A DNA stretch of 64,000 bases, taken from Streptosporangium carneum. Its GTDB lineage: Bacteria; Actinomycetota; Actinomycetes; Streptosporangiales; Streptosporangiaceae. The stretch is from contig NZ_BSEV01000003.1 of NCBI RefSeq assembly GCF_027922005.1, forward strand, positions 124,001-188,000, written 5' to 3'. The notes beneath the pieces were generated by a model. That model worked only from the letters and a program-made list of their open reading frames with translations. It had not been told where the DNA came from and did not search any database. Shown here piece by piece: positions 14,799 to 32,785 of this stretch. Position numbers and translations under genes: made by a program. The first letter of the stretch is position 1. Every line of letters starts with the position of its first letter.

Positions 14799-15043
14799 CG
14801 TGCCTCAGGCTAGCCCAGTCCGGCGCCGCGCCGGGCGCCTCAGCACGGCCGAACCCCCGTGACCAGGGGCGTCTCCCGGTGCGCGCCCGCGAGAACCCGA
14901 AAGAAGCGGCGCGGCCGCGACCCGGTGCGCGCCCTCGGAGGAGCCACGCGGCCGCCGCCCGGCGCGTGTTCCCCTGCCGCCCCGGGAGATCCGGGAACGA
15001 GATCCACGGTTCCGTCTTCTCGGCGGGCTGTCTGACTGACAGG

Positions 15044-16731: not shown

Positions 16732-16874
16732 GGGGGGCCGTCCAGGGGCCGTGGGACCGTCGCCACACGGCCCTGTCACGCCCCCGGTCTGATCCGCCCG
16801 GGGAGAAGTTCCCGCGGGTCGTCCGTCCCGCCGGTGGAGGGGGCGCGACCCCGGCGTGCGATGATTGCCGCACC

Positions 16875-17453
16875 ATGCCCGCCCCGCCCGCCGCCTCACC
16901 CGCGACGCTGCCCTTCCGTCTCGCCCGTGCCACCGCCTTCGCCGCGGTCTGCCTGGGGCTGAGCGTGACGGCGCACGTCCTCGCGGGAGGAACGGTCTCC
17001 GCGCGGAACGCGGCCTGCGCTCTGGCGCTCGCGTTCGTCGCGGCCCTCGCCGTCTCCGGGCGCGAGCGCACGCTGGCGGTGATCCTGCCGCTCCTCGCCT
17101 GCCTGCAGGCCGGGCTGCACGTGATGTTCTCCATGGCGCACGTCGCGTCGCCCGCGGAGGCCGCCGGGCACGTCCACTCCGGGCTGGTGCCGGGCCTGGG
17201 CATGCTGGTCATGCACGGCTGGGCGGTGGGGCTGACCTCGGTGTGGCTGGCACGCGGCGAGGCGGCCCTGTGGGCGCTGCTGCGCCGGCTGTGCGTACGG
17301 CTGCGCCGCGTGCTCGTGCTGTACGTGGCTCCGGCTCACATCTCCTTCCTCACCCCTGACGCGCTCGAGCCGAGGACCCTGCGCTCGGCCGTGCTGCGCC
17401 ACGCGGTGAGCAGGCGCGGCCCTCCCCTGGCTGCCTGCGTCACCTCCGGCTGA
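16875..17453 (+). CDS. multi-TM membrane protein of a copper/peroxidase locus
   Basis: The 192-residue protein has four hydrophobic segments (LARATAFAAVCLGLSVTAHVL; CALALAFVAALAVSG; LAVILPLLACLQAGLHVMF; LGMLVMHGWAVGLTSVWLA) and histidines or methionines facing the same side (HVMFSMAHV, GHVHSG, MHGW). It is a paralogue of the 15,044 gene. It is followed at about 230 bp by the PCu(A)C and DyP genes. The His/Met pattern suggests metal handling; no enzymatic motif is visible. Confidence 0.75.
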   Translation: MPAPPAASPATLPFRLARATAFAAVCLGLSVTAHVLAGGTVSARNAACALALAFVAALAVSGRERTLAVILPLLACLQAGLHVMFSMAHVASPAEAAGHVHSGLVPGLGMLVMHGWAVGLTSVWLARGEAALWALLRRLCVRLRRVLVLYVAPAHISFLTPDALEPRTLRSAVLRHAVSRRGPPLAACVTSG

Positions 17454-17679
17454 CCGTCCCGGTCCTCCGGAGGCGTCGCCTCGCGCCCGAGCCCGTACCG
17501 ATTCCCGGACCTCCGGATCCGTACGGCTCCCGAACCCTCACCGGTCCGTGCCGACGCCGCGATCCCGCCGCCCGGCTGACCGGATCACCGTGACAACCCC
17601 GGCTGCCCCGTTCGGCATGGCCAGATCAAGGCGGCACTCGGCCGCGGCCTGCCGGCTCCGCCGGAAGAAAGGCTTCAGC

Positions 17680-18255
17680 GTGTCCTCTTTCCGTACCGTC
17701 CCCGTCGCGATCCTGAGCGCGGCCGTCGTCGTGCTCAGCGGATGCGGTTCCCAGAACGGCGCCGCACCGGCGACCGTCACGGGCACCGCGCCCGCCGCCC
17801 CCTCCTCTTCCGCCTCCTCCGCTCCCTCCGCCGCCGGCCCCGCGCTGACGATCACCGATCCGTGGGTGAAGACCACCGACAAGGGGATGAGCGCCGCCTT
17901 CGGCACCCTGGTCAACGACACCGACGCCGAGGTGACCGTCGTCTCGGGATCCTCGCCGCTGTCGCCGAGGATCGAGCTGCACGAGGTGGTCGACTCGAAG
18001 GGCAAAATGATCATGCGGCCGAAGGAGGGCGGGTTCGTCATCCCCGCTCACAGCTCTCACACGCTCCAGCCCGGCGGTGACCACATCATGCTCATGGACG
18101 TCACGCAGAAGGTGAGACCCGGCGCGCAGATCCCCTTCACCCTCGCCCTCAAGGGCGGCGGGACCCTGGAGTTCACCGCGGTCGGCAAGGATTTCGCCGG
18201 CGGCAGGGAGGACTACCAGCCGGGCGCCGACGACATGGGCAAGGACCACGGCTGA
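17680..18255 (+). CDS. PCu(A)C-type periplasmic/extracellular copper chaperone lipoprotein
   Basis: The 191-residue protein starts at GTG 17680 (GAAAGG 7 nt upstream) with a lipoprotein signal ending in the lipobox LSGC. A Ser/Ala/Pro linker follows and then the PCu(A)C domain. The copper site H-(M)x10-M-x21-H-x-M is visible: His in LHEVV, Met in SKGKMIM, and HIM in GGDHIMLMD. These proteins bind Cu(I) and deliver copper to extracellular cuproproteins. The stop overlaps the DyP peroxidase start (TGATG). The pairing resembles the Sco/ECuC/DtpA locus of Streptomyces lividans. Confidence 0.9.
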   Translation: MSSFRTVPVAILSAAVVVLSGCGSQNGAAPATVTGTAPAAPSSSASSAPSAAGPALTITDPWVKTTDKGMSAAFGTLVNDTDAEVTVVSGSSPLSPRIELHEVVDSKGKMIMRPKEGGFVIPAHSSHTLQPGGDHIMLMDVTQKVRPGAQIPFTLALKGGGTLEFTAVGKDFAGGREDYQPGADDMGKDHG

Positions 18256-19454
18256 TGCGCCCGCCCCGGCTGACCCGCAGGGGACTGCTCGCGGGGAGCG
18301 CCGCCACGGCGGCCGGCGCCCTGGCCGCGTACGCCTCCCCTCGGCCCTCCTACGCCTCCGTCCCGGCCCGCGCTCCCGGCGGCTCGGCCGTCGAGCCCTT
18401 CCACGGCGTCCACCAGGCCGGGATCGCCACACCGCCGCAGGCCCACGCCGTGTTCGTCGGGCTGGACCTGCGGCCCGGCACGCGGCGCGAGGCGATCGTC
18501 CGGATGATGCGCCTGCTCACCGACGACGTCCGCCGCCTCACCGAGGGCAGGCCCGCCCTGGCCGACACCGAGCCCGAACTGGCCGTCCTCGCCGCCCGGC
18601 TGACCGTGACGTTCGGTTTCGGCCCCGGCCTGTTCACCGCCGCCGGGGTGGAGGACCTGCGCCCCGAGTCGATCGCGCCCCTGCCCGGGTTCGTGGTCGA
18701 CAAGCTGGAGAAACGGTGGACCGGCGCGGACCTGCTGCTGCAGATCTGCGCCGACGACCCCGTCACCCTCGCCCACGCCCTGCGCATGACGGTCAAGGAC
18801 GCCCGCTCCTTCGCCCGCGTGCGCTGGACCCAGCGGGGGTTCCGCAGGAGCCCGCAGACACAGGCCCCCGGCACGACCCAGCGCAACCTCATGGGCCAGT
18901 TGGACGGCACCGTCAACCCGGTGCCGGGCACCCCCGACTTCGACCGGGCCGTGTGGGTCGGCGACGGCCCGCAGTGGCTGCGCGGCGGCAGCACGCTGGT
19001 GCTGCGGCGCATCCGCCTCCAGTTGGAGACGTGGGACGCCGCCGACCGGGTGGCCAAGGAGTTCACCGTCGGCCGCCGTCTGGACACCGGCGCCCCGCTG
19101 ACCGGGCAGAAGGAGCACGACGAACCGGACTTCGACCGGCTCAACGCGAACGGGTTCCCGGTCATCTCCGAATACGCCCACATTCGCCGGGCCCACGTCG
19201 CCGACCCCGGCATGCGGATCCTGCGCCGGGTCTACAACTACGACGAGGGGCTCACCCCGGAGGGACACGCCGACTCCGGGCTGCTGTTCGCCTCCTACCA
19301 GGCCGACATCGACCGGCAGTTCGTCCCCGTCCAGAAACGGCTGGCCGAGGCCGACCTGCTGAACGAGTGGACGACCCCCGTCGGCTCCGCGGTGTTCGCC
19401 GTTCCGCCCGGCTGCTCGCCCGAAGGCTGGATCGGGGAGACCCTTCTCGGCTGA
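18255..19454 (+). CDS. Tat-exported DyP-type haem peroxidase (DtpA/EfeB-like)
   Basis: The 399-residue protein begins with a twin-arginine signal (RLTRRGLLAGSAATAAGALAA). It has the DyP motifs: distal GxxDG as GQLDGT (~213) and the proximal haem-ligand His in YAHIRRAH (~309). DyP peroxidases oxidise phenolics, dyes or copper-dependent partners with H2O2. The start overlaps the PCu(A)C stop, so copper delivery and peroxidase are translated together. A perfect 15-bp terminator overlaps the stop codon. Confidence 0.93.
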   Translation: MRPPRLTRRGLLAGSAATAAGALAAYASPRPSYASVPARAPGGSAVEPFHGVHQAGIATPPQAHAVFVGLDLRPGTRREAIVRMMRLLTDDVRRLTEGRPALADTEPELAVLAARLTVTFGFGPGLFTAAGVEDLRPESIAPLPGFVVDKLEKRWTGADLLLQICADDPVTLAHALRMTVKDARSFARVRWTQRGFRRSPQTQAPGTTQRNLMGQLDGTVNPVPGTPDFDRAVWVGDGPQWLRGGSTLVLRRIRLQLETWDAADRVAKEFTVGRRLDTGAPLTGQKEHDEPDFDRLNANGFPVISEYAHIRRAHVADPGMRILRRVYNYDEGLTPEGHADSGLLFASYQADIDRQFVPVQKRLAEADLLNEWTTPVGSAVFAVPPGCSPEGWIGETLLG

Positions 19455-19467
19455 GAAGGGTCTCCCC
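19434..19467 (+). terminator. perfect 15-bp hairpin overlapping the DyP stop codon
   Basis: GGGGAGACCCTTCTC (19434-19448) pairs perfectly with GAGAAGGGTCTCCCC (19453-19467) around a GGCT loop. The TGA stop (19452-19454) is at the loop edge. It separates the DyP gene from the convergent FhuF-like gene and can act in both directions. Confidence 0.8.
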
Positions 19468-19517
19468 GGCGTCCTCGGGGCTCATGACGTCCCCCGGATC
19501 CGCCGTCCGGCGCGCGC

Positions 19518-20264
19518 TCAGCGCTCGCGGCGGGTCCGGGGGGCCAGCAGGACGCAGTCGCCGCACTTGCCGCCGCCGGGCAGGCGGTAGTAGAGGCAGC
19601 AACTGCGCCGGACGAAGGAGAGCCGTCCCCCGGCGGACCCGGTCAGCTCGCCGCCGCCCGCGAGCACTCCGTGGGAGAGCAGCTCGCGGCCCAGACAGAG
19701 CGCGCGGGCCGCGAGCTCGGGGCGTTCCCGCGCGACCGCTCCCAGCGTCCCGGCCAGAGCGGAGGCGGCGTTCCCCCAGAGCAGGGCGGGAGCGATCCGC
19801 GTGGTCTCCCGAACGGCCAGCGCCAGCGGCTCCAGCAGCCCGCCGACCACGATTCGGTACAGCGGCTCCGCGACCCGGTCCCGGTCCGTGATCTCCCATC
19901 CTTCCAGGCGGGGCGCCCACAGCGGGAGCGGTCCGGTCGGCTCCGGACGCCAGCGGACCCCGGCCGGGTCCAGGTCGGCGAGCAGGTCGTGGGCGACGGC
20001 CGCGCCGACGACCGGTGACCACAGCCGCGCCGCCAGTCCCTGATACAGGATCGAGGCGGCGATCCTGGTCTCGGTCGTGTCCAGACGTCGCCGGACGTCG
20101 GCGACCCTGGCCGACAGTGCTTCGACGTCGGTGAACAGCTCGCCGAGCGGCCGCCAGCCCTGACCGGCCGGCTCCACCGGGTCCGTCGAGACCTCGAAGT
20201 AGGCGCTGATCGTGGAGACCTGGGCCATGACGTCGGCGACCAGCCGAGGGGGCGCGGGCCGCAT
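19518..20264 (-). CDS. FhuF-like (2Fe-2S) ferric-siderophore reductase family protein
   Basis: The 248-residue protein ends with the FhuF C-terminal iron-sulphur motif: CC-x10-CxxC in SCCLYYRLPGGGKCGDC (~224-239). The middle (SILYQGLAARLWSPVVGAAV) matches the family helix region. FhuF-type proteins reduce ferric siderophores in the cytoplasm. ATG 20264 is the first good start; a second in-frame ATG (MAQVSTISAYF) is possible. The gene lies between the DyP gene and the metE remnant, and no siderophore genes are adjacent. Confidence 0.85.
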   Translation of the reverse strand: MRPAPPRLVADVMAQVSTISAYFEVSTDPVEPAGQGWRPLGELFTDVEALSARVADVRRRLDTTETRIAASILYQGLAARLWSPVVGAAVAHDLLADLDPAGVRWRPEPTGPLPLWAPRLEGWEITDRDRVAEPLYRIVVGGLLEPLALAVRETTRIAPALLWGNAASALAGTLGAVARERPELAARALCLGRELLSHGVLAGGGELTGSAGGRLSFVRRSCCLYYRLPGGGKCGDCVLLAPRTRRER

Positions 20265-20290
20265 GGGAGACCACCGTCCTTTCCGTGAGG

Positions 20291-20330
20291 ATCCCGGCCC
20301 GGCGCGCCGGAGGACGCACCGGGCCGGGAC
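20291..20330 (-). terminator. metE terminator hairpin
   Basis: TCCCGGCCCGG (20292-20302) pairs with CCGGGCCGGGA (20319-20329) immediately after the metE stop on the minus strand. Confidence 0.65.
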
Positions 20331-20333
20331 GGG

Positions 20334-22284
20334 TCAGCCGTTCGCGCCGGTCGCCTCCGCCCGCACCTCACGGGCCGCGGCGACCAGGTTGTCCAGGGAG
20401 ACGCGCGTCTCGAGCCAGCCGCGGGTCTTCAGGCCGCAGTCGGGGTTGACCCACAGCCGCCCGGCCGGGATGCCGTCCAGCGCCTTGCGCAGCAGGGAGG
20501 CCATCTCCGCGACGCCGGGCACGCGCGGGGAGTGGATGTCGTAGACGCCCGGGCCGACCTCCCTGGGGTATCCGGCCTCGGCCAGCTCCCGGGCCGCCTG
20601 CATGTGGGACCGGGCGGCCTCCAGGCTGATCACGTCGGCGTCCAGGTCGTCGATGGCGGCCAGGATCTCACCGAACTCGGCGTAACACATGTGGGTGTGG
20701 ATCTGGGTGTCGGCCCGCACTCCGCTCGTGGCCAGCCGGAAGGCCTCACCCGCCCAGGCCAGGTAGGCGGCCCGATCGGCGGCGCGCAGCGGCAGGGTCT
20801 CCCGCAGGGCGGGCTCGTCGACCTGGATGACGGCGGCGCCGGCGGCCTCCAGGTCGGCGACCTCGTCGCGCAGGGCGAGGGCGACCTGGCGGGCGGTCTC
20901 GGCCTGCGGCTGGTCGTCGCGGACGAAGGACCAGGCCAGCATGGTGACGGGGCCGGTGAGCATGCCCTTGACGGGACGCTCCGTCTGGGACTGGGCGTAG
21001 GTCGTCCAGCGCAGCGTCATCGGCTCGGGCCTGGAGACGTCCCCGGCCAGGATCGGCGGCCGCACGTAGCGGGTGCCGTAGGACTGCACCCAGCCGTGCT
21101 GGGTGGCGAGGTAGCCGTTGAGCCGTTCGGCGAAGTACTGGACCATGTCGTTGCGCTCAGGCTCGCCGTGCACCAGGACGTCGATTCCCGCCCGCTCCTG
21201 GAAGACCAGGATCGAGCGGATCTCGGCGGCGATCCGCTCGTCGTAGGTCACCCGGTCGATCCGTCCCGCGCGCAGGTCGGCCCTGGCCGCCCGCAGCTCG
21301 GCCGTCTGCGGGAAGGACCCGATGGTGGTCGTGGGCAGCGGCGGCAGGTCCAGGCGGGCGCGCTGCGCCGCGGCCCGCTCGCCGTACGGCTGGGGCCTTC
21401 GGGTGTCCCGCGTGGTGACCGCGGCGGCGCGGGCCCGCACCGCGGGGTCGTGGGTGAGCGCCGAGGCCGCGCGCGAGGCCAGGTCCGCCCGGTTGGCGGC
21501 CAGCTGCCCGGCGATGGCGCCGGTGCCCTCCGCCAGCCCCCTGGCGAGGGTGACGATCTCGGCGACCTTCTGCCTGGCGAAGGCCAGCCAGCGGCCGACC
21601 TGCGGATCGACCCCGTGCTCGAGGGCGGTGTCCAGGGGGACGTGCAGCAGCGAGCAGGAGGCCGCCACGTCCACCCGCCCCGCGAGGCCGAGAAGGGTGG
21701 CCAGGGTGGACAGCGACCTCTCCAGGTCGGCGATCCACACGTTGCGGCCGTCCACGACGCCCGCGACCAGGCGCTTTCCCGGGAGCCCGCCCACCCGGGC
21801 CAGGTCGTCCAGGTTCGCCGCGGCCGAACCGGTGAAGTCCAGGCCCAGCCCCTCGATCGGCGCCTCGGCCAGGACCGGGAGCGCCTCGCCGAGCCGGTCG
21901 AAGTAGGCGGCGACGAGGATCTTCGGCCGGGCGGCGAGGGAGCCGAGCTCGCGGTAGGCGTGGGCGGCGGCCTCCAGTACGGCTCCGCCGTGGTCCTGGA
22001 CCAGGGCGGGCTCGTCCAGCTGCGCCCACTCGGCTCCGGCGGCGCGCAGAGCGGCGAGCACCTCGGCGTAGACGGGAAGCAGCCGCTCCAGCAGGGTGAG
22101 CGGCTCGAAACCGGGGTCGACGCCGGGCGCGGGCTTGGCCAGCAGCAGGTAGGTGACGGGGCCGACGAGGACGGGGCGCGCGGTGTGACCGAGCGCGAGG
22201 GCCTCGCGCAGCTCGGCGACGGGCTTGGCGGCGTCGGCGGTGAAGACGGTGTCCGGCCCCAGTTCCGGCACCAGGTAGTGGTAG
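20334..22284 (-). pseudogene. metE: metE 3' part: cobalamin-independent methionine synthase, N-terminus cut off by AICE1
   Basis: This encodes about 650 residues of MetE from YHYLVPELGPDTVFTAD to the C terminus, including LPTTTIGSFPQT and the catalytic Zn-site segments HGEPERNDMVQYF, HTHMCYAEF and NPDCGLK. The enzyme transfers a methyl group from 5-methyl-THF-Glu3 to homocysteine. The normal start, promoter and first ~126 residues lie 7.8 kb away at 30,059-30,441 because AICE1 is inserted at codon junction TAC-CAC-TAC. A chance ATG in the element (22295) continues in frame but has no ribosome site. Excision would restore an intact gene of about 775 codons. Confidence 0.95.
22276..22284. other. 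attL core of AICE1
   Basis: TAGTGGTAG at 22276-22284 is repeated at 30059-30067. To its left is metE, to its right the element. Joining the two outer flanks at this 9-mer gives the coding sequence for FDTNYHYLVPE without change. Confidence 0.9.
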
Positions 22285-22321
22285 AACATGATCAAGGGGC
22301 ATATTAACTCGGGAGGTGCCC

Positions 22322-23857
22322 GTGCTCAAGCTGGCCACGCTGACGGAGAGAACAGACCTGGTCCCCGTCGTGTCCTACGCTCGCATCTCGGCCGACCTGA
22401 GGGGCGACGAACACGGTGTGCAGGATCAGCACCGGGTCAACCGGGAGACGGCCGCGCGTCATGGCTGGACCGTGGTGCACGAGTTCACCGACAACGACAA
22501 GTCGGCGGCCAAGGCCGACGTCTACCGTGACGACTTCGAGGCGATGCTCAAGGTTCTGAAGGCCGGAAAGCTGCCGGACGGCACGGAGGTCCGGGGCGTC
22601 GTGATCATCGCGGAGGACCGGCTCGCCCGGCGTCCCGGGGACTACGAACGGTTCGTGGAGGCGACCACCTACCGGGACGGGCGGGTCTTCGCGGACGCGA
22701 AACAGGCCAAGGATCTCTACAGCGAGGACGTGGAGAGCATGGGCCTGTTCGGCGCGGTCATCTCCAAGATGGAGGTCCGCAAGATGCAGCGTCGCATGCG
22801 CAGATCCCATGAGGCGCGGGCACTGGACGGCAGGGCTGTGGGCGGTCCCCGGCCGTTCGGCTGGAAAGAGGACCGGATCACCCTGGAGGAGACGGAAGCG
22901 GCGCTGCTGCGGCAGGCCGCCCGTGACTTCGCCGCTGGCACGTCTCTGTACGCCATCGTCATGGACTGGCAGCGACGAGGGGTCAAGACCCCTCGGGGTA
23001 ACTACTGGCAGACACGCACGCTCAGCAGCGCCCTGGCCAAGCCGCGCATGTGCGGGTACCGGGAACTGCGCGGCGAACTGGTCCGTGACACGAGCGGTGC
23101 CCCGGTCGTCGGCGAGTGGCGACCGATCCTGACCCCGGCGGAGTGGCTGGCCGTACGGAACGTTCTCGACAGTCGCAAAGGGCACAGCGTCAGGCGGGGC
23201 GGGGTCGTGGGCGATCCCCTCCCCCACGACTACCGGGAGCACCGCTATCTCCTCACGGGCGTACTGCGCTGCGGCCGTCCTGTCGACGGTGGGGGCGTGT
23301 GCAACGTGCCCCTGAGGACGAAGAGGACCAAGGACGGCAAGCGACACATCTACTTCTGTCCCGGCCAGGACGTGGGCGGCTGCGGCGGGGTCGCCCGGCG
23401 TGGGGACCTGGTCGACTTCGCGATCTCCGAACTCGTGCTCGACCAGATGGAACTCGCCCAGTACGCCGACGCGGACGACTCTCCCCAGTGGACCGGGGAG
23501 CAGGAACTCGCCGACAAGGAGGAGCAGTTGGAGGAACTGACCCGGCGGTGGCGGGCACGGAAGATCTCCAACAACCTCTACTTCGGCAACGTCGGTGTCC
23601 TGGAGAGCGACATCGCCCGGCTGCGATCGGAGAAGAACAGGATCACGGGAAGAGCTGAACGTCAGCGGGCGAGCATGGCCACCGACGTCAAGGAGATCCG
23701 GCGACGCTGGTACCTCTCCGAGGAGGAGGGCGGGCTGCCGCTGTCCAGGAAGCGGGCGCACGTCCGCGAGATGCTGCACGCGGTGATCGTGCATCCGGCA
23801 GGCAAGGGACGGGCCACCTTCAACCCCGATCTGCTCGAACCGGTGTGGGTGGAATAG
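22322..23857 (+). CDS. large serine recombinase (AICE1 integrase)
   Basis: The 511-residue protein has the resolvase catalytic domain with the nucleophile in SYARIS (Ser23), a RGVVIIAEDRLARRP segment, a recombinase domain (GGPRPFGWKEDRITL...), a zinc ribbon (LRCGRPVDGGGVCN ... YFCPG ... GGCGG, ~305-350) and a C-terminal coiled coil (EEQLEELTRRWRARKI). Such integrases recombine attP with attB without supercoiling requirements. GTG 22322 follows GGGAGG at 5 nt; GTG 22316 would overlap that site. Its location 38 bp inside attL is typical and it most likely made the metE insertion. Confidence 0.95.
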   Translation: MLKLATLTERTDLVPVVSYARISADLRGDEHGVQDQHRVNRETAARHGWTVVHEFTDNDKSAAKADVYRDDFEAMLKVLKAGKLPDGTEVRGVVIIAEDRLARRPGDYERFVEATTYRDGRVFADAKQAKDLYSEDVESMGLFGAVISKMEVRKMQRRMRRSHEARALDGRAVGGPRPFGWKEDRITLEETEAALLRQAARDFAAGTSLYAIVMDWQRRGVKTPRGNYWQTRTLSSALAKPRMCGYRELRGELVRDTSGAPVVGEWRPILTPAEWLAVRNVLDSRKGHSVRRGGVVGDPLPHDYREHRYLLTGVLRCGRPVDGGGVCNVPLRTKRTKDGKRHIYFCPGQDVGGCGGVARRGDLVDFAISELVLDQMELAQYADADDSPQWTGEQELADKEEQLEELTRRWRARKISNNLYFGNVGVLESDIARLRSEKNRITGRAERQRASMATDVKEIRRRWYLSEEEGGLPLSRKRAHVREMLHAVIVHPAGKGRATFNPDLLEPVWVE

Positions 23858-24366
23858 GACGTCTCCGGACGTCCTTGATCGTCAAGGGAGCTGAGTGCCT
23901 GACCATCAGGCGACAGCTCCCTTACTTGTTGCGCGCGTTTGTCGCGACCGACGGGACGGCATGGGACTTCCCCGGACGCCTACGGACGCTCACGGACATT
24001 CACGGGGACTTACAGGGAATGACTCGCCGGGAACTTCTACCTGCGTTAATTCGTTTATCAGTGGTACAAACGTAGGACAGAAAAGCCTCCGCCAAGCGGG
24101 AAGAGTGAGGGAAACCAGAAGCGACAGATTCGAGCGCACAAAGCCACCGGGCACAGAAGAGAAGAAGCCGTTCCCCTGGGGGGACCCGGCCAGCGGTAGG
24201 CCGCACCACAGGCAGCGCTCACTGGTCAATCGTCGCATGAAAACACTCCGCATCTCCCTCTGACCAGCACCAACGCACCAACAGGCATGCGATGTCGGCA
24301 TGTCTGGCGATGGCGCTCGTCCTTTTTCCGGTTCAGGTGGCGGTTCCCTGCGAGGAAAGGAGTCTT
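23858..24366. other. 509-bp gap: integrase terminator and 10-bp iterated motif
   Basis: AAGGGAGCTG (about 23885) pairs with CAGCTCCCTT (to about 23925), a probable integrase terminator. At 23973-24022 five imperfect 10-mers run head to tail (CGGACGCCTA, CGGACGCTCA, CGGACATTCA, CGGGGACTTA, CAGGGAATGA), resembling iterons or operator sites upstream of the replication genes. No supported gene lies in the gap; the minus-strand frames lack ribosome sites. Confidence 0.45.
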
Positions 24367-24555
24367 TTGGTACCTCCGGACCTGGTACCCCATGCCGCGC
24401 TTGTAAAGGAGTGGTGCAAGCGCAAGATCGCCGAGTCGCCTCGGTGGTCGCCCGAGAAATGGCGGCGTATCGCTGCCATTCACGGCGTGGAGCTGGCCGA
24501 CGGGCCGACTTGCGCCGAAGCCCCGGCCCACAAGGACGGGAGGGATGCCGCGTGA
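24367..24555 (+). CDS. small AICE protein upstream of the replication initiator
   Basis: From TTG 24367 (AAAGGAG 4 nt upstream) a 62-residue protein is read: VPPDLVPHAALVKEW, then RKIAESPRWSPEKWRRIAAI. It contains a Trp/Arg helix of possible nucleic-acid binding type and no known domain. Its stop overlaps the initiator start as GTGA, so it is translationally coupled to replication. An upstream ATG at 24292 in the same frame has no ribosome site. Confidence 0.5.
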   Translation: MVPPDLVPHAALVKEWCKRKIAESPRWSPEKWRRIAAIHGVELADGPTCAEAPAHKDGRDAA

Positions 24556-25985
24556 GCGGTGACGCCTTCCCCTCCCCCGACCTGATGGCCGCCATCCAAC
24601 GGGCGGCCATGCCCGACTTCGCCCGGTGGCAACAGATGGTGCGGGCAACGGGCGGCTGCGCCCATCCGATCCGGCTCCACGGCGAACGCCTGACCGTGGA
24701 CGCCGGAACGGGTGAGGTCCTGGACGTCTACCGGACGGCCGACGAACCGACCGGGTTCCTGCTCACCGCGTGCGGCAACCGGCGAGCCTCGGTCTGCCCA
24801 GCCTGTTCGGAGACCTACCGGGATGACACGTTCCACCTGATCCTGTCCGGCCTGCGGGGCGGCAAGGGCGTCCCGGAGGAGGTGAGCGCGCATCCTCGCG
24901 TGTTCGCCACCTTCACCGCTCCGTCCTTCGGGGCGGTCCACGCGCACCGGAAGAAGGGCGGCAAGACCCTGCCGTGCCGCCCCCGGCGCGACAACCCCGT
25001 CTGCCCGCATGGCCTCCGCGAGGGCTGTGGGGCACGTCATGACCGCGATGATCCTCAACTCGGGCAACCGCTCTGCGCGGACTGCTACGACTACGCGGGC
25101 GCGGTGCTGTGGAACGCCCACGCGGGCGAACTCTGGCGGCGCTTCACCCTCGAACTCCCGGCGGTCTTCGCCCGGCTGCTCGGCGTCAGCCGTACCGAAC
25201 TGCGCCGACGCCTACGGTTGTCGTACGCGAAGGTCGCCGAGTATCAGGCGCGGGGCCTGGTCCACTTCCACGCGGTGATCCGTCTCGACGGTCCGGACGG
25301 TCCGGACTCGCCTCCTCCGGACTGGGCCACCGTGCCGACACTCGACCAGGCGATCAGACAGGCGGCCGGACAGGTGGCGGTCCCCGTCTCCTCCCCCGTC
25401 CTCGTCGTCGACGACACCGGCGAACAGGGGCCGCTCGTCCTGCGCTGGGGGACACAGCTCGACGTGGAACCGGTCTATGTCTCCTCCGCACTCGACGGCA
25501 TCACTGACAAGCGGGTGGCGGCCTACATTGCCAAATACGCGACCAAGGGGGCGGAGTCGGCCGGAACCGTGGACCGTCCGATCCGGCAGGCATGGGAGAT
25601 CGCCCGGCTGGACGTGACCGAGCACGTCCGGCGCATGATCTACACCTGTTTCAGCCTCGGTGACCTTCCCGAGTTTCGAGACGTCCCGCTTCGGAAGTGG
25701 GCGCACATGCTCGGCTATCGCGGGCACTTCTCGACCAAGTCACGCCGCTACTCCGTCACCATGGGCGAACTGCGGCAGACCAGGGCGGACTACCGGGCCG
25801 AACAGGCTCGGCTGATCCTCGGCCTTCCCGACCCCGCCGAGGGCAGGACCGTCACGCTGTCCGAGTGGCGCTACGCCGGAAGCGGTCACCGGCACGGAGA
25901 AGCGTTCTGGGCTGAGGTGACCCGGCAGCGCATCGAGACGGCGCGCCGGTTCGCCAGACAGAGCACGGCGGACACGGAGGAGTGA
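24552..25985 (+). CDS. RepSA-type replication initiator (HUH/rolling-circle)
   Basis: The 477-residue protein has Cys-rich segments (TACGNRRASVCPACSETYR; VCPHGLREGCGARH; LCADCYDY) and rolling-circle initiator motifs. These are a VFATFTAPSFG strand, the metal-binding HUH motif VHFHAVI (~238) and the YIAKYATKG tyrosine motif (~325). It matches the RepSA family of pSAM2-like AICEs and actinomycete plasmids, which nick the origin for rolling-circle replication of the excised circle. GTG 24552 overlaps the preceding stop. Its presence means AICE1 probably replicates when excised. Confidence 0.9.
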   Translation: MSGDAFPSPDLMAAIQRAAMPDFARWQQMVRATGGCAHPIRLHGERLTVDAGTGEVLDVYRTADEPTGFLLTACGNRRASVCPACSETYRDDTFHLILSGLRGGKGVPEEVSAHPRVFATFTAPSFGAVHAHRKKGGKTLPCRPRRDNPVCPHGLREGCGARHDRDDPQLGQPLCADCYDYAGAVLWNAHAGELWRRFTLELPAVFARLLGVSRTELRRRLRLSYAKVAEYQARGLVHFHAVIRLDGPDGPDSPPPDWATVPTLDQAIRQAAGQVAVPVSSPVLVVDDTGEQGPLVLRWGTQLDVEPVYVSSALDGITDKRVAAYIAKYATKGAESAGTVDRPIRQAWEIARLDVTEHVRRMIYTCFSLGDLPEFRDVPLRKWAHMLGYRGHFSTKSRRYSVTMGELRQTRADYRAEQARLILGLPDPAEGRTVTLSEWRYAGSGHRHGEAFWAEVTRQRIETARRFARQSTADTEE

Positions 25986-26008
25986 CAGGTGGTCCCGGGG
26001 CGGGCGGT

Positions 26009-26476
26009 TCAGTCGATGTGCGGGTATGCGCCGTTCAAGTAGTCGTTGAGCTGCCGCCACTGGGTCGGGTGGATGTCGAGCGCCTGAAGATCCCCGGGCG
26101 CTACCCACCGAACGTCGCTAGCCTCGTCGTTGGCTTCCGGCTGGCCGCCGATCGGGCGGGCGATCAACATCACTTCGTACTCCTGGCGGACCTCCCCGTC
26201 TGTGTAGGCCACGATGTGACCGGGGTCGGAGTAGATCCCGAGCATGCCGACCGGCTCGACGACGACCCCGGTCTCCTCCTCGGTCTCCCGTACGGCGCAC
26301 TGCGAGGGTGTCTCGCCGATCTCCATCTTCCCCATCGGCAGTGCCCATTGCCCGGTGTCACGCCTGCGCTGGAGGAGGATGCGGCCTGTCTCGTCGACGG
26401 TGATCGTGCCGCACGCGGGAACCAGGGTGTTGGCCTTCGGCGCGTTCGGGTCGTTCCAGTACTCGACTCGCCCCAT
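26009..26476 (-). CDS. Nudix hydrolase (Pif-like)
   Basis: The 155-residue protein has a complete Nudix box, GKMEIGETPSQCAV-RETEEETGV (G-x5-E-x7-REUxEExGU, ~69-91), inside a canonical fold. Nudix proteins hydrolyse nucleoside-diphosphate derivatives. In pSAM2 the Nudix-motif protein Pif prevents redundant transfer between cells carrying the element, and AICEs commonly encode one, so an immunity role is possible. ATG 26476 is preceded by GAGAGGAC. It starts 10 bp after the HTH/PLD gene stop and forms an operon with it. Confidence 0.9.
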   Translation of the reverse strand: MGRVEYWNDPNAPKANTLVPACGTITVDETGRILLQRRRDTGQWALPMGKMEIGETPSQCAVRETEEETGVVVEPVGMLGIYSDPGHIVAYTDGEVRQEYEVMLIARPIGGQPEANDEASDVRWVAPGDLQALDIHPTQWRQLNDYLNGAYPHID

Positions 26477-26486
26477 GGCCGTCCTC

Positions 26487-27242
26487 TCAGATCTCGGCAC
26501 CGGACCAAGGAACCGCCTCGGCCCACACGCGGTCGAATGATGTCATGTAGTGATCGGCAAGTGTTCCCCCGTCGAGTCGCCGAAAGTGAAAGGTTGCGTT
26601 GGCCGACGCGGGTTCGCCGTAGGCGTGCGGGTTGACAAGGATCTCGTCGTCGTAGCGGAACAGGGACGCATACAGCGTCGTGGAGTGGAGCCGTACCTCG
26701 CATCCGTCGAGGTCGACGAGACTCCGGTAGTAGGTGAGAGACGAACGGATCTTGGCCGCGAGCGTGCCGCCGATTCGTTCCTCCCGGTCGCGGATCTCCA
26801 CGGCCTGTGAGTTGGGGTCTCCGAAGCAGAGGCGGACCGCCACGCCGCGTTGGGCGGCATGGCTGAGCATCCGGGCCACCTTCGGCTGTGTCTGGGCGTA
26901 GAAGGTCCCGGAGAACACCAGGACGTCTATGTGTTCCTGGGCCTCGCTGAGAAGACGTAGCCACAGCTCGCGCGGCACGCTCGCCCGGTCGGGGAAGATC
27001 TCCAGCAGTTCCGAACGGCTGGCCTCGCCCTTGCGGGTGTCGCTCTGTCGCAGCACGCCGGGCCAGAGGTAACTCTCGTCGGCTACCAGCAGCTTGGCAG
27101 CGGCCCATCGGTGGCGGCGGTGCGGGACTCGGCCTGTGTTGATCCAGCGTTCAACGGTCTTGGTCTCGACTCCGCATTCTTCGGCTAACTGCTCCAGCGC
27201 GATTCCCTGACGCAGCATCGCTGTACGTAGACGTTCGTTCAC
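26487..27242 (-). CDS. HTH regulator fused to a PLD-like domain
   Basis: The 251-residue protein has an N-terminal HTH (residues ~5-50: LRQGIALEQLAEECGVETKTVERWINTGRVPHRRHRW) and a C-terminal region like the phospholipase-D fold: FSGTFYAQTQP, AAQRGVAVRLCFGDP, and HSTTLYASLFRYDDEILVNPH in place of an HKD box. The lysine of HxK is missing, so it is probably a sensor or binding domain. GTG 27242 is the start. Four GGACGT boxes lie upstream (27265-27350). It is the likely master regulator of AICE1. Confidence 0.8.
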   Translation of the reverse strand: MNERLRTAMLRQGIALEQLAEECGVETKTVERWINTGRVPHRRHRWAAAKLLVADESYLWPGVLRQSDTRKGEASRSELLEIFPDRASVPRELWLRLLSEAQEHIDVLVFSGTFYAQTQPKVARMLSHAAQRGVAVRLCFGDPNSQAVEIRDREERIGGTLAAKIRSSLTYYRSLVDLDGCEVRLHSTTLYASLFRYDDEILVNPHAYGEPASANATFHFRRLDGGTLADHYMTSFDRVWAEAVPWSGAEI

Positions 27243-27264
27243 GCCCTAAGTGGACTAGACGTCC

Positions 27265-27350
27265 GAGGACGTTTCAAGACTTTCTCGGGACGTTTCCATG
27301 GTGTCTAACACGTCCTCACAACGGCCTTCGGCGAAGTTCACACGTCCTTT
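27265..27350. promoter_or_regulatory. four GGACGT boxes between divergent AICE1 genes
   Basis: GAGGACGTTTC (27265-27275) and CGGGACGTTTC (27286-27296) are 21 bp apart in one orientation. AACACGTCCTC (27307-27317) and ACACGTCCTTT (27340-27350) are the same motif inverted. They separate the HTH/PLD gene (minus) from the methyltransferase gene (plus). Similar AGGACGTCT/GGACGTCC elements occur just after the integrase (about 23858-23876). They are probable binding sites of the HTH regulator. Confidence 0.6.
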
Positions 27351-27476
27351 TCGCCTCGCTTCACTTGTTCTCGCTGGTCAACACCATTACGCAGTGCGAT
27401 AGATGGGGGTTGAGTACGTGGGGACAATTATGTCCATTAAATCCGCTCTGGTGGCAAGTGCCGAAAGGTGCGGAGC

Positions 27477-28283
27477 ATGACCGAAACCAGGGCGGACGAG
27501 GAAGCTCCACGAGGAATCGACGTCCGGGTGCCGAATGTCGCCCGGATGTATGACTACTTCCTCGGCGGCAAGGACAACTTCCGCATTGACCGGGTCTGCG
27601 CCGAGCGGGTGCGGGAGCACGCTCCCGAGGTGTTCGTCATGGCCAGGGAGAACCGGGCCTTTCTCGGGCGGGCGGTGCGCTACCTGGCCGACGAAGCGGG
27701 CGTCGACCAGTTCCTCGACATCGGCGCGGGCCTGCCCACACAGGAGAACGTTCACCAGGTCGCACAGAAGATCAACCCAGAGGCACGGACGGTCTACGTC
27801 GATCATGACCCGGTGGTGCTGGTGCATGCGCGGGCGTTGCTGGCCACCGACGATCGGACCTGCGTGATCCGGCAGGATGTGCGGGCACCGGAGAAGATCC
27901 TCACCGCCGTCGACGCTCTGGGCCTGCTGGACCTGTCGCGGCCGGTGGCGGTGCTGCTGGTGGCGGTCCTGCACTTCGTCACCGACGCCGAAGACCCCTA
28001 CGGGATCGTGCGCACGCTGCTGGAGGCGGTGCCTGCGGGCTCGCATCTGGTCGTCTCGCACGTGGAGCACCGCCCCGACCTGGAGGAGGCCGCCGCCCAG
28101 TACCGGGACGCCAACGCCCCGGTCACGCTGCGCACGGCCGACGAGATCGGGCGCATGTTCGACGGCCTGGCCCTGGTCGACCCCGGGGTGGTGCAGGTGA
28201 CGGACTGGCGTCCCGACGAGCCGCCCTACCTCGGCGAGCATCGCCGCAAGTGGGTGTGCGGTGGGGTGGGCCGCAAGCCATGA
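27477..28283 (+). CDS. Methyltransf_19 (DUF574) SAM-dependent methyltransferase-like protein
   Basis: The 268-residue protein carries the family hallmarks: VPNVARMYDYFLGGKDNF near the N terminus, SAM motif I FLDIGAGLPTQENVH (~76-90), the acidic end of strand 2 (VYVDHDPVVL) and VAVLHFVTD. The family is widespread in actinobacteria and usually has no known substrate. ATG 27477 follows GAAAGG at 8 nt. It starts a three-gene plus-strand unit and is divergent from the HTH/PLD regulator. Confidence 0.88.
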   Translation: MTETRADEEAPRGIDVRVPNVARMYDYFLGGKDNFRIDRVCAERVREHAPEVFVMARENRAFLGRAVRYLADEAGVDQFLDIGAGLPTQENVHQVAQKINPEARTVYVDHDPVVLVHARALLATDDRTCVIRQDVRAPEKILTAVDALGLLDLSRPVAVLLVAVLHFVTDAEDPYGIVRTLLEAVPAGSHLVVSHVEHRPDLEEAAAQYRDANAPVTLRTADEIGRMFDGLALVDPGVVQVTDWRPDEPPYLGEHRRKWVCGGVGRKP

Positions 28284-28612
28284 CCGCACTCCTGGCGCAT
28301 GACTTCCGCGCGGTGGACACGGCCCAACGGCTGTGCGACGTCCTGACCGCCACGCATCAACTGTCCTGCGAGGTGCGGGGCGGCTACGGGCTGGCTCTGG
28401 TGGCGATGCGGTGCGGCCTGGTGGTGTGGTGCAACGGGGAGTGGTTCTGGTGGTGCGCGGGCTGGGACAGACAGCGTCGCCGACCGGTGTACGCCTTCTG
28501 CCGGGTCGACGAACTGGAACAGGCCGCGCGCCGGGTGGCCTTCCACTGCGCCCGACTGCGCGAATGGCAGACGCAACGACGGCAGGCCGGTGAGGGGGCG
28601 TCATGCTCATGA
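28280..28612 (+). CDS. hypothetical AICE1 protein
   Basis: The 110-residue protein starts at an ATG overlapping the methyltransferase stop (ATGA). It is Trp/Cys rich in the middle (MRCGLVVWCNGEWFWWCAGWDRQRRRPVYAF) with flanking helices. I do not recognise the family; the aromatic beta segment recalls small ligand-binding domains. Coupling implies a function linked to the methyltransferase. Confidence 0.6.
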   Translation: MTALLAHDFRAVDTAQRLCDVLTATHQLSCEVRGGYGLALVAMRCGLVVWCNGEWFWWCAGWDRQRRRPVYAFCRVDELEQAARRVAFHCARLREWQTQRRQAGEGASCS

Positions 28613-28890
28613 CCGAAAAGTGCGTGAGTCCTCACGTGGCCATGCCCCAGAACGGCTACAGGCGGCTGGACTGGCGAACGCCGTACCGGGGGCTGGAGCG
28701 GGTGCGGCCGACGGCCTGGACGTGTGGTTGCCGGGCCACGGTGTATGAGCTGTGCGAGGGCGGCGGGCAGGCCTTCATCCGGCGCACCGTCCAACTCGAC
28801 AGCGGCCACGAGATCCACGAGACCCCCTGCTGGCCGATCCCCGAAGCACGCACGATCTGGACGGCTCTGCTGACCGGCCGGGCACGGTAG
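28603..28890 (+). CDS. hypothetical AICE1 protein
   Basis: The 95-residue protein overlaps the previous gene by 10 nt. It has a WTCGCRATVYELCEGGGQAFIRRTV stretch with paired cysteines followed by ARTIWTALLTGRAR. No known family is recognised. The stretch looks like a small zinc- or nucleic-acid-binding beta domain, which is a guess. It ends shortly before a strong hairpin. Confidence 0.55.
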   Translation: MLMTEKCVSPHVAMPQNGYRRLDWRTPYRGLERVRPTAWTCGCRATVYELCEGGGQAFIRRTVQLDSGHEIHETPCWPIPEARTIWTALLTGRAR

Positions 28891-28921
28891 ATCAGACCTC
28901 GTCCAAGCGTGCTGACAAGCC

Positions 28922-28963
28922 GGTGCGGCGGTACGGCCTTCCCCGTGCCCGTGCCGCCGCACC
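28922..28963 (+). terminator. hairpin terminator after the AICE1 methyltransferase unit
   Basis: GGTGCGGCGG (28922-28931) pairs with CCGCCGCACC (to about 28963) around a ~20-nt loop. The following gap to 29,481 contains no supported gene; its last 80 bp are AT rich (TTAATTATTACACAG near 29,420) and probably hold the promoter of the 47-residue peptide. Confidence 0.6.
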
Positions 28964-29481
28964 TGACCGGAGAACCCCGTGATCAGGTCGCCCTGTGTCA
29001 TTCGATGGCAACCCGACCCGTACCGCAAGGCCGCCAAGGCCTGAGGAACGGAAGCGGGGCGGCAGCCTGTTTTCCCGGTTCGACGAAAGCAGACCTTGCT
29101 CCCCGGTAGGTCAGAGCGGCTCGTGTCGGTGAATCGTGGCTTCGATGGTGCGTGCCGGGCGCCGGGTCATGGTGGTACGGGCGTGAGCCGGTCGGGTAGC
29201 GGTGGGGCCGGTCGCATGACGTAGTCATCCCGAAGGGACGCCCGTTCAGGGCAGTGGTGCCGACGCCACTGCGGCGAAAAAATGATCTTGGTCGGGCGCG
29301 CGGCACGGGTGGCGGTGTGTGCCTCTGGTGGGGTGAGTGGTGTGTGCGGCGGTCCGGGTGTGATTTCAGCCTGGACCGCCACACTGGTGTCACCTCACGG
29401 AGCAGTCACCATCTGCAACTTAATTATTACACAGAGTCATGTGACGATGAGGTGTCGGTAACTCCTAGCCAAAGGAGCATC

Positions 29482-29625
29482 ATGAGCACCATGCCGCACC
29501 TGTCCGCCCCGGTCGAGCGCACCCTCACCGGAACGGCCACAAGTGACACCGTCGGCGTCACCCCATCTTTCAACGCCCCGCCGTTTCTCCCCGGCCCACC
29601 CTTTGCCGGTGACGACGACAACTGA
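29482..29625 (+). CDS. 47-residue peptide of AICE1, unknown
   Basis: An ATG with AAAGGAG 4 nt upstream encodes MSTMPHLSAPVERTLTG..., ending PPFLPGPPFAGDDDN. The N-terminal half is Thr/Ser rich, the C-terminal part Pro/Phe rich with an acidic end. A strong hairpin terminator follows 16 nt after the stop, and an AT-rich promoter region precedes it, so it is a monocistronic small gene. It is not recognised; it could be a signalling or RiPP-like precursor peptide, but no maturation enzyme other than the nearby Methyltransf_19 is seen. Confidence 0.6.
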   Translation: MSTMPHLSAPVERTLTGTATSDTVGVTPSFNAPPFLPGPPFAGDDDN

Positions 29626-29640
29626 CCGTCTGCCGTGAAG

Positions 29641-29672
29641 TGGCCCCGTCGTTCTTCGGAGCGGCGGGGCCA
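29641..29672 (+). terminator. terminator of the 47-residue peptide gene
   Basis: TGGCCCCGTCG (29641-29651) pairs with CGGCGGGGCCA (29662-29672) with one G-T wobble and a 10-nt loop. Confidence 0.75.
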
Positions 29673-29726
29673 TCGCATGCCATACATGAGGGCGGCGGCG
29701 CACACCCCGGTGCGGCGGGTGCGATT

Positions 29727-29890
29727 GGTTGCGGCGGGCGGCCGGTACGGCGGGCGGCGCGGTCTGCCCGTCCGCGCTGGACGGCGCGGGCCGGGACCGG
29801 CCGCCAGGGCCGCATGCCCGGCCCCGATGCCGGTCCGGCGCGGGCGGGCACGCCGCGCCGTGCGGCGGCGCGGAGCGCTGCCGCCTTGAC
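29727..29890 (-). repeat. GC-rich structured island shared with AICE2 (copy 1)
   Basis: Read on the minus strand from 29890, this starts GTCAAGGCGGCAGCGCTCC and aligns over its length with 52537-52695 of AICE2 on the plus strand, at roughly 85-90% identity by eye. Shared blocks include GGCAGCGCTCCGCGCCGCC, CCGGGCATGCGGCC and GGCCGGTCCCGGCCCGCGCC. It is full of overlapping GC inverted repeats (e.g. GGCGGC/GCCGCC). No conserved reading frame is evident. It may be a cis site (transfer, single-strand origin) or a structured RNA. Confidence 0.75.
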
Positions 29891-30058
29891 CCTGTAATGA
29901 AACTCCTCGCAGATCGCCCCTCTTTGGTGATCTTTAATGTGTGATCCGGGGCTTCACGAGGGCGGTTACGCGGACGTCTTGGCAGCTCGGAGGGCGGGTC
30001 GTGTGGCGTGACGTTGAGCGGGATGCCCCATGGCTAATAGTTGCCTTTGTCGTTGAAC

Positions 30059-30067
30059 TAGTGGTAG
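30059..30067. other. attR core of AICE1
   Basis: This is the second copy of TAGTGGTAG. The 168 bp to its left (29891-30058) are element sequence without a gene; to its right metE resumes. Confidence 0.9.
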
Positions 30068-30441
30068 TTGGTGTCGAACCACTTGGTCATCTCCAGCGGG
30101 GCGACGTCCTGGGTGCCTCGCGCCATGGCGAAGTAGCCGTCCAGGGCGTCGGCCTCGACGGCGGCGCGGTGGCGTGCGGGGACGGCCCCGACCATGACGG
30201 TGGTGTCCAGGACGTGGTCGTACAGCGAGAAGTCCCCGGTGGGGACCTCCCGCACGCCCGCCTCCGCCAGCCGCCGCCAGGTGTCGCCGCGCAGCCTGGC
30301 CGCGACGGCGTGCAGGTCCTCTGCCGGGACGCGGCCCGTCCAGTAGCCCTCGATCGCCCTCTTCAGCTCCCGGCCCGGCCCCTGACGCGGATAGCCGTGG
30401 ACGGTGGCGATCGATGAGGGAGTGGCGGAAGTCTCAGCCAC
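30059..30441 (-). pseudogene. metE: metE 5' part (first ~127 codons)
   Basis: From GTG 30441 (AAGGAG 8 nt upstream) the frame gives the MetE N terminus: [32 protein letters not shown], and [23 protein letters not shown] created at the element junction (30060-30058) then ends it. This is the regulatory half of the split gene: it retains the ribosome site and the riboswitch leader but encodes only a truncated N-terminal domain. It joins the fragment at 20,334-22,284. Confidence 0.95.
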
Positions 30442-30624
30442 GAAACTCTCCTTCGCGAGTCATGGAGGACTCCGGTGCCCTCAGAGGCGCGAAGGAACGG
30501 CCGAACGGCGGGCGCGCCGTGCCTGGCCGTTCTGGCCATGCCGCCTGTCCGTGCCCGTCCGTGTCCGCCCGCACCGCCGACCCGCCCTCGAGGTCACCGA
30601 AGTCGCCGCGTGCGTGGTCGCACG

Positions 30625-30830
30625 CGGGCAGTGGCAGGTCTTCGGACTCGCGGGCACGCCGGGGCCGTTCGAACCCGGGCATCTACTGGCCGTCGCTTCC
30701 CCGATCCGGTGTCCGGATCCAGTGCGTCTGACGGCGGTCGTTCCCACTCACCGCTGCGGGGCAGTCCCGGAATTGGCGAGCTCGCGAGCCAAACAGGCGA
30801 GCGCTGCCGCACCGGGTTCCCTCTTACGAC
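30625..30830 (-). promoter_or_regulatory. cobalamin riboswitch in the metE leader
   Basis: The minus strand shows the conserved cobalamin aptamer blocks in order: GGGAACCCGGTG (5' end near 30822), CCGGGACTGCCCCGCAGCGG with GTGA (30747-30770), CGACCGCCGTC, GGAAGCGACGGCCAGTAG (about 30683-30700) and GCGAGTCCGAAGACCTGCC (about 30633-30652). The fragment of metE begins about 190 nt downstream. In bacteria with both MetE and B12-dependent MetH, such riboswitches shut off metE when B12 is present. A GCGTGCG/CGCACGC hairpin just after the aptamer could belong to the expression platform. Confidence 0.95.
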
Positions 30831-30981
30831 GCGCCTGCCTGGCGGACAGGGCGAACCGACTGCACGCCCAAGCCTAGGCGCATCCGTCTCTCTTGACGAC
30901 ACCTGCCGCCCCGCGATCCGCTCGGCGGGGATTGCGGGCCCCATCGTCGAACCGGCGGCGGGCGCGACACGTGATGAGGGT

Positions 30982-31680
30982 ATGAGATATCGGCTTCTCA
31001 CCGTGCTCGCGTTGCTGGCCGCCACCGTCGTGCTCACTCCCGGTACGGCATGCGCCTGCAGTTGCGTCCCGCTCAAACCCGCGGAGCAGGTCACGAAGGC
31101 GGCCGCCGTCTTCACCGGGACCGTGGTGGCCTCCCGTCCGGGCAAGGGCGAGCCCATGGGCCCCACGCCTCCGGTCGTCTACACCCTGAGGGCCGACCAG
31201 GTCTACAAGGGCGAGCCCGCCGCCGAGTACCAGGTGGCCACCAACGCCGACAGCGCGGCCTGCGGTTACACCTTCGCCATCGGCTCGCGGTACCTGGTGT
31301 TCGCCTCGGACGGGGACTCCGGGTTGTTCGCCGTCGACCCGGGCGTCCCGCTGCACACGGCGCTGTGCGACGGCAACCTGCAGGTCCGGCCGGGCGAGGG
31401 CCCGTTGCGCGCCCAGGACGGCATCCTGAAGGACGAGCCGCTCAGCGCCGAGCTCCTCTCCGCGCTCGGCGACGCCACCCGCCCCCGGCCGGCCGCCTCC
31501 CCCGCCCCTTCCACCCCGGCCCCTTCCACCCCGGCCCCCCTTCCCTCTGCCGCCCCGGCCTCCTCAGCCGGTGACTCCCCTGCCGCTCCGGCCGTCCCGT
31601 GGGTCTACGCGGGCGGAGCCGTGGCGCTGCTCGGTCTCGTCATCACCGGGTGGCGGCTGACCGGCAGACGCCGGAAGTAG
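30982..31680 (+). CDS. surface protein with TIMP/NTR-like domain and C-terminal TM anchor
   Basis: The 232-residue protein has a signal peptide (MRYRLLTVLALLAATVVLTPGTACA) and a mature N terminus CSCVPLKPAEQ. This Cys-x-Cys start and the following beta strands (VFTGTVVAS, VVYTLRADQVYKG, CGYTFAIGSRYLVFA, LCDGN) fit the TIMP/netrin-like fold. A Pro/Ala/Ser/Thr linker (~175-205) and a C-terminal TM helix (VPWVYAGGAVALLGLVITGW) with an RRRK tail follow. It is probably anchored outside the membrane; its partner is unknown. It is divergent from the metE riboswitch leader. Confidence 0.82.
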   Translation: MRYRLLTVLALLAATVVLTPGTACACSCVPLKPAEQVTKAAAVFTGTVVASRPGKGEPMGPTPPVVYTLRADQVYKGEPAAEYQVATNADSAACGYTFAIGSRYLVFASDGDSGLFAVDPGVPLHTALCDGNLQVRPGEGPLRAQDGILKDEPLSAELLSALGDATRPRPAASPAPSTPAPSTPAPLPSAAPASSAGDSPAAPAVPWVYAGGAVALLGLVITGWRLTGRRRK

Positions 31681-31847
31681 GGCTCCGCGCCGGGAGCGGG
31701 CCTCCGCCTCGGGGAAGGCGGCCGTTCGCGGCGTCCGGTCATACGGCGTGGGCCGGGGAACGCGTGGCGGAGGCCGCCCCAGGATCTCCAAGATCGGCAG
31801 GATACGCTAAATTTCTGCCTTTACGAGGAGTCTGTGGTGGCCCTCCA

Positions 31848-32750
31848 TTGATCACGGCTTTTATACCGATATGGGCGCTGACGCTGCTCGGCTTCGCGGC
31901 CGGACGCCTCCGGCTGCTCGGCGCGGAGGCCGACCGGGTGCTCGGCGGTTTCGTCTTCCACCTCGCGATGCCCGCCGCGCTGTTCTCCATCCTCACCCGG
32001 ACCAGGCTGTCGTTCAGCGGGCCCGCCCTGGGTGTCTTCGCCGCCGGAACCGTCGTGACCATGGCCCTGGGTTTCCTGCTGAGCGCCCGGCTCCTCGGCA
32101 GGAAGCCCGGCGAGGCCGCGATCGGCGCGATGGCCGCGGGCTACGTGAACTCCGCGAACCTCGGCATCCCGGTCACCCTGCAGGTGCTCGGCGACGCCAC
32201 CTTCCTGAGCGGGGTGCTGCTCTTCCAGGTGCTGGTGGTCACTCCCGTCGTGCTCGTGGTCCTGGACCGGGGCGCGGGCCGCGCCTTCGGGCTCGCCCGG
32301 CTGGCGAGCCTTCCGTTGCGCAACCCGGTGATCCTGGGCCTGATGGCGGGCGCGCTCTGCTCGGCGCTCGGCTGGCGTCCGCCCCCGGCGATCGCCGGGC
32401 CGATCGCCCTGCTCGGCGACGCCGCCGTGCCCACCGCACTGGTCGCCCTCGGCCTCTCCCTGACCGTGCGCGGCCCGGCCCTGACGGGCGAGCGTTCCCA
32501 GATACTGGCGCTGTCGGCCATGAAACTGCTGGCCCAGCCGCTGCTGGCGTACCTGTTCGGGCTGCTGGCACGGCTCGGCCCCGCCGAACTGCTCGCCGTG
32601 GTGGTCTGCGCGGCCCTGCCGACCGCGCAGAACGCCTACGTCTTCGCCCGCGAGTACGGCCAGGCCGCCTCCGTGGCCCGCGGGACCGTGATCGTCAGCA
32701 CCGCGCTGTCGATGCTCACCCTCGCGGCGGCCGGATGGCTGCTGGGTTGA
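31848..32750 (+). CDS. AEC (auxin efflux carrier) family transporter
   Basis: The ~300-residue protein is almost all TM helix (about ten), with the AEC landmarks GFVFHLAMPAALF, GYVNSANLGIPV (conserved Asn-x-Gly in the crossover helix), NPVILGLMAGAL and ALPTAQNAYVFAREYG. AEC carriers export or exchange small organic acids and related anions. No ATG or GTG occurs in frame ahead of TTG 31848, which begins the first helix, and a GAGGAG lies 17 nt before it, so the start is uncertain. Substrate unknown. Confidence 0.85.
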   Translation: MITAFIPIWALTLLGFAAGRLRLLGAEADRVLGGFVFHLAMPAALFSILTRTRLSFSGPALGVFAAGTVVTMALGFLLSARLLGRKPGEAAIGAMAAGYVNSANLGIPVTLQVLGDATFLSGVLLFQVLVVTPVVLVVLDRGAGRAFGLARLASLPLRNPVILGLMAGALCSALGWRPPPAIAGPIALLGDAAVPTALVALGLSLTVRGPALTGERSQILALSAMKLLAQPLLAYLFGLLARLGPAELLAVVVCAALPTAQNAYVFAREYGQAASVARGTVIVSTALSMLTLAAAGWLLG

Positions 32751-32785
32751 CCGGCCGTACGGAGGACGAGGACGGGCCGGAGACC

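Follow-up and report, generated by a model that had tools for sequence, protein, structure and literature searches.

In the analysed stretch of Streptosporangium carneum DNA (64,000 nt, referred to as the window), the first 127 codons of metE are separated from the rest of the gene by an element of 7,783 bp at 22276-30058 (one repeat copy counted), which is flanked by a 9-bp repeat. We hold with considerable confidence that this is an AICE-derived, perhaps mobilizable element that was integrated into metE by a large serine integrase, that the loss of MetE is tolerated through MetH, and that the element carries a peptide precursor gene as cargo. The open reading frames of the integrase and of the replication initiator RepSA are seen directly, and a second genus likewise has an integrase of this lineage at the corresponding position in metE.

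On the minus strand, metE is read in two parts: the 5' part at 30059-30441, with 127 codons followed by a TAG at the junction, and the 3' part at 20334-22284; both were assigned by ORF and domain match. The repeat TAGTGGTAG is found exactly twice in the window on its strand, once at the integrase end of the element (22276-22284) and once at the far end (30059-30067). In the Pfam search, the 5' piece covers positions 3-117 of PF08267 and the 3' piece positions 116-309 of the same domain plus PF01717, such that the N-terminal and the catalytic MetE domains are jointly spanned. The original prediction had described the two parts at these coordinates, joining exactly at the 9-mer with an unbroken reading. 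This is confirmed by the intact genes with the highest similarity (G012, G230, G010 and G015, with 86%, 83%, 81% and 80% over the 5' piece), all four of which run through the site with 0 bases gained or lost. Uninterrupted metE is thus present in relatives. The insertion point corresponds to the DNA encoding the conserved MetE motif TNYHYLVPE, where recombination by the large serine integrase would have placed the element. No tRNA genes were found in the window, which together with the integrase domains supports the earlier claim of a serine integrase acting on a non-tRNA target.

Neither metE piece has a stop or frameshift of its own. The dN/dS values relative to the four intact genes range from 0.213 to 0.399 for the 5' piece and from 0.205 to 0.355 for the 3' piece, compared to 0.175-0.288 and 0.167-0.274 for the respective regions among the intact genes themselves. 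The window pieces are therefore equal to or slightly above the intact pairs, and this lack of decay is consistent with a recent insertion as well as with occasional use.

The integrase gene (22316-23857, plus strand) starts 31 bases from the repeat and encodes 513 aa. Its resolvase and recombinase domains (PF00239, PF07508) score over the cut-off and its zinc ribbon (PF13408) just below it (22.7 bits, cut-off 25.3), a composition that identifies a large serine integrase. An 87-aa ORF without a Pfam match follows at 24292-24555 (plus strand), with siblings in loci L019 (84% identical), L018 (56%) and L103 (50%); its position makes it a candidate directionality factor. Together with such a factor, the integrase could excise the element and thereby restore metE. 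The pSAM2-type replication initiator RepSA (24300-25985, plus strand; PF20199, 552.6 bits) probably has its true start at a GTG near 24552. Further downstream, a NUDIX hydrolase (26009-26500, minus strand; PF00293), a possible HTH or PLD-like protein (26487-27242, minus strand; all Pfam matches sub-threshold), an S-adenosyl methyltransferase (27468-28283, plus strand; PF04672, 334.8 bits) and two small ORFs on the plus strand are encoded, one at 28250-28612 with relatives in L019 and L103 and one at 28603-28890 with a relative in L018. The last annotated gene is that of a cyanobactin-type precursor (29482-29625, plus strand).

An integrase with att repeats and an AICE-type replication initiator are characteristic of AICEs, and both are present. 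The element is nevertheless termed AICE-like and not a complete AICE, because no FtsK/SpoIIIE-type transfer protein was found among the 17 element ORFs scanned with Pfam. In the survey by Ghinet and co-workers (PMC3218068), 19 of 144 AICEs are stated to use serine recombinases, some of them in protein genes, and Frankia elements without tra or rep are regarded as remnants or mobilizable, a class that the window element fits. The Frankia element Faln2929 described there, which disrupts an endonuclease gene, is similar with respect to RepSA, the serine integrase and the protein-gene target, and a PF04672-type methyltransferase is also named in that survey as AICE cargo. Relative to Faln2929-type AICEs as outlined in this source, the window element differs in its target metE, in having no transfer gene among those found, and in its precursor cargo. 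A phage origin was rejected, as the best of 416 matching phage records is only 30.1% identical. The best match in the plasmid collection (61.3% identical) is a Nonomuraea record of 11.85 Mb. Literature searches combining metE, serine integrase and attB yielded no such insertion, judged by titles, and those combining methionine synthase, serine integrase and attachment site yielded nothing. With this insertion, metE joins the target genes of serine-integrase elements.

A scan of the genome collection identified 45 loci with relatives of the integrase. At loci of the genus genomes G008 and G007, the translations on the integrase side equal those of Streptosporangium sandarakinum (L023) and S. 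minutum (L034), which makes Streptosporangium the most likely genus of the window. The same insertion was looked for in related genomes, and one further insertion at the site was found, in another genus: in Planomonospora parontospora (L019), an integrase adjoins, at the same Tyr codons, a 3' part of metE that is 56% identical to that of the window. This integrase (L019 10001-11543) is frameshifted near residue 90, either by real decay or by a draft error, and no 5' part of metE was seen before the contig end.

A tree of 51 distinct integrases was constructed, leaving out exact duplicates and matches shorter than 440 aa (except for L019, represented by its longest piece). By neighbouring gene, these comprise 22 integrases at msrA, 12 at aldo/keto reductase-like, four at GH18-like and three at symporter-like genes, two at metE, one at an HNH-like gene and seven at others; the aldo/keto reductase, GH18, symporter and HNH labels are a reading of short translated motifs, and the msrA and metE labels were compared with real copies in part only (L103, window, L019). 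In the tree, the two metE users form a pair (95/94) whose sister is L018, the HNH-like user. Overall, 9 changes of target label are required, compared to 26.4 in shuffles. Judged from this tree, target choice follows the integrase clade, with several changes of target. One integrase family is spread across six or more kinds of target gene, every one of which encodes a conserved Tyr-rich motif.

A related element is located at msrA in the same genome (L103), with an integrase 63% and a RepSA 77% identical to those of the window element. Its msrA is readable over the full length and a second msrA 3' end is present beyond the integrase, which suggests that the element brought a new msrA 3' end. 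A second target-gene 3' end is found in 17 of the 18 msrA loci tested (four more were too short), with the reservation that several of these matches are short and that the same threshold gave background in non-msrA loci. In contrast to the intact msrA of L103, no restoring tail was found at the window metE. Since the gene, of about 780 codons, is interrupted only 127 codons in and is not restored in this way, metE is considered broken and would be non-functional while the element resides. As a side observation, L103 8060-17527 contains displaced and degenerate msrA 3' ends together with a precursor gene and looks like a tandem accretion of elements extending up to the contig end.

A second metE as a backup, which would speak against the original prediction, was looked for and is rejected, because the genome contains just one match to the MetE N-domain and the 24-base site in intact form was not found in the assembly at ≤3 mismatches. 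Two further PF01717 matches (contigs C6 and C24) are located in frames of 353-367 aa. The rest of the genome was also searched for metH, and two MetH genes were found, one on C27 with a frame of 1,293 aa and one on C6 with a frame of about 1,160 aa. The possibility that the second MetH gene is broken was dropped, as the TGA in question is simply where this gene ends, one codon ahead of the end of the match. MetH (PF02965) is present in all 16 genomes of the genus; among the matches listed, 12 have the C27 kind (E of roughly 1e-97 or lower) and all 16 the C6 kind. CbiC is found in 15 of the 16 genomes, including that of S. carneum. The MetE N-domain, on the other hand, matches in 11 of the 16 genus genomes (S. 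carneum included) and is missing from five; in the family, 237 of 341 genomes have a match. Among the matches listed, a frame of about 130 aa is found in S. carneum only. A short metE also occurs in G042, G161 and G177; these genes have a stop or frame changes at later positions, not a split at the site seen in the window.

A cobalamin riboswitch (30616-30876, minus strand; RF00174, 70 bits) is located upstream of metE, outside the element, and precedes metE in six of six relatives scanned as well. From the MetH and MetE counts and the riboswitch, metE is regarded as a gene for cobalamin shortage that is often missing in the group, and the earlier designation as a core biosynthetic gene overstates its role. 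The loss of metE would be tolerated with MetH working whenever cobalamin is present.

The genomic neighborhood of metE is not conserved. None of six neighbouring window ORFs was matched at E 1e-20 in the metE flanks of four relatives, which indicates that metE itself moves. Comparison of metE and its riboswitch in the window (17548-34003) with loci L099-L102 shows different neighbours in each of the four relatives (six ORFs checked).

Two alternatives concern whether the element can still leave metE. It could be a locked relic that is no longer able to excise, with metE permanently lost, and the missing transfer gene and the frameshifted integrase of the Planomonospora counterpart agree with this. 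However, the window element retains open integrase and RepSA frames and two identical att repeats, and we consider a locked relic unlikely. Considerably less probable still is the reversible phenotypic switch that had been proposed; in the form considered here, regulated excision would rebuild metE when cobalamin is short, as in the case of SPbeta and spsM. The exact, restorable join on which the proposal was built stands; the switch itself gained no specific evidence, because any exact site-specific insertion is restorable. Restoration of the reading frame upon excision, the undecayed metE pieces with dN/dS near that of intact genes, the open integrase frame and the second insertion at the same metE site in another genus speak for a switch, but a recent insertion explains the undecayed pieces equally well, and the other insertion has the frameshifted integrase. 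Moreover, neither the empty site nor the circle is found in the assembly (joined element ends searched at ≤1 mismatch), although a form present in a minority of cells may escape an assembly. Several relatives lack MetE or have a broken copy, implying that metE is easily given up. For SPbeta in spsM of Bacillus subtilis, excision, a small directionality factor with timed action and the phenotype are all reported as demonstrated (PMC4191935). The window element shares with this system a large serine recombinase, an exact gene split and an excision that would rebuild the gene; it differs in being known from its sequence alone. A methionine phenotype makes excision of the element easy to measure. 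That the two metE pieces still form a working two-part enzyme is hardly credible: both are undecayed and the element supplies an in-frame ATG just upstream of the 3' part, but the split lies inside the N-terminal domain and no evident ribosome-binding site precedes this ATG.

Apart from its effect on metE, the AICE-like element is characterized by its precursor cargo. The ORF at 29482-29625 encodes the 47-aa peptide MSTMPHLSAPVERTLTGTATSDTVGVTPSFNAPPFLPGPPFAGDDDN, with AAAGGAG five bases upstream of the ATG region; a consensus promoter or terminator was not found near it. The anacyclamide/piricyclamide precursor model TIGR04446 gives 29.2 bits, below the cut-off of 35, and a paralogue on contig C14 reaches 37.5 bits, above it. 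Common to this peptide and anacyclamide/piricyclamide precursors are an SAPVER leader, a variable core, an FAGDD tail and a PatA/PatG protease in the genome. It deviates from them in its actinomycete host, its location on a mobile element far from the protease, and its score below the cut-off. Prochlorosins are a precedent for precursors lying far from their enzyme.

Precursor homologues number eight in the genome, and any match (E 0.01) is found in 9 of 341 family genomes. They are located in the window, in L131 (10012-10152), and in L132, L133, L134, L135 and L103; near-identical upstream DNA and unrelated cores were noted among them. Two copies on contig C20 lie directly upstream of a PatA/PatG protease gene (748 bits; PatG_C and PatG_D domains), which is not beside the window precursor. 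In five of the eight other matching genomes (G003, G023, G095, G097 and G205), a PatA-like gene is found within a few kb of the precursor; the remaining three (G201, G224 and G289), which have weak precursor matches, showed none within that distance. No PatF-type prenyltransferase was found, a weak absence, as control genomes gave no match either.

The other six S. carneum copies are orphans, away from the PatA/PatG locus. Three of these are located in or beside AICE-type elements, a number too small for a claim of enrichment (n=6): that of the window, that on C14 within a tRNA-Val element that is bounded by a 31-bp repeat and encodes RepSA as well as a tyrosine integrase broken over two frames, and that on C1 just outside the msrA element, in which the first half of the leader does not match. 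The orphans on C44, C38 and C2 have neither RepSA nor an integrase of the window's family within about 10 kb. Five orphans (C3, C14, C44, C38 and C2) were aligned, leaving out the C1 and C20 copies and counting gap columns as differences. Mean DNA identity amounts to 0.88 over the 145 upstream bases, to 0.80 and 0.78 in leader and tail, respectively, and to 0.71 downstream, but falls to 0.29 in the 30-base core. Cyanobactin precursors are described as having this kind of hypervariable core within conserved flanks (PMC4603692).

The PatA/PatG protease of contig C20 may mature the window precursor in trans. As a tentative extension, which we regard as possible but somewhat short of probable, AICE-type elements could serve as vehicles for orphan variable-core precursors, with a single PatA/PatG locus on the chromosome maturing them in trans; the metE element would be one such vehicle. 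A new cyclic peptide could then reach the host with each new element, and mobile elements would spread such peptides as 47-codon genes without enzymes. Literature searches for cyanobactin and Streptosporangium, and for RiPP precursor, integrative conjugative element and in trans, yielded nothing. Cyanobactin clusters of actinomycetes are not claimed as unknown; literature on actinobacterial cyanobactins exists, judged by title.

Two of the loci with precursor homologues have a recognizable organization of their own. The tRNA-Val AICE-type element of L131 spans 7347-17131 and, besides its 31-bp repeat, RepSA and the tyrosine integrase split over two frames, encodes a GntR protein. The C20 locus (L135, 9548-13162) comprises the two precursors, the 724-aa protease, in which PatG_C and PatG_D domains are found, and, at 12182-13162, a second subtilase of shorter length. 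Pairs similar to this locus are found in G003, G023 and G205.
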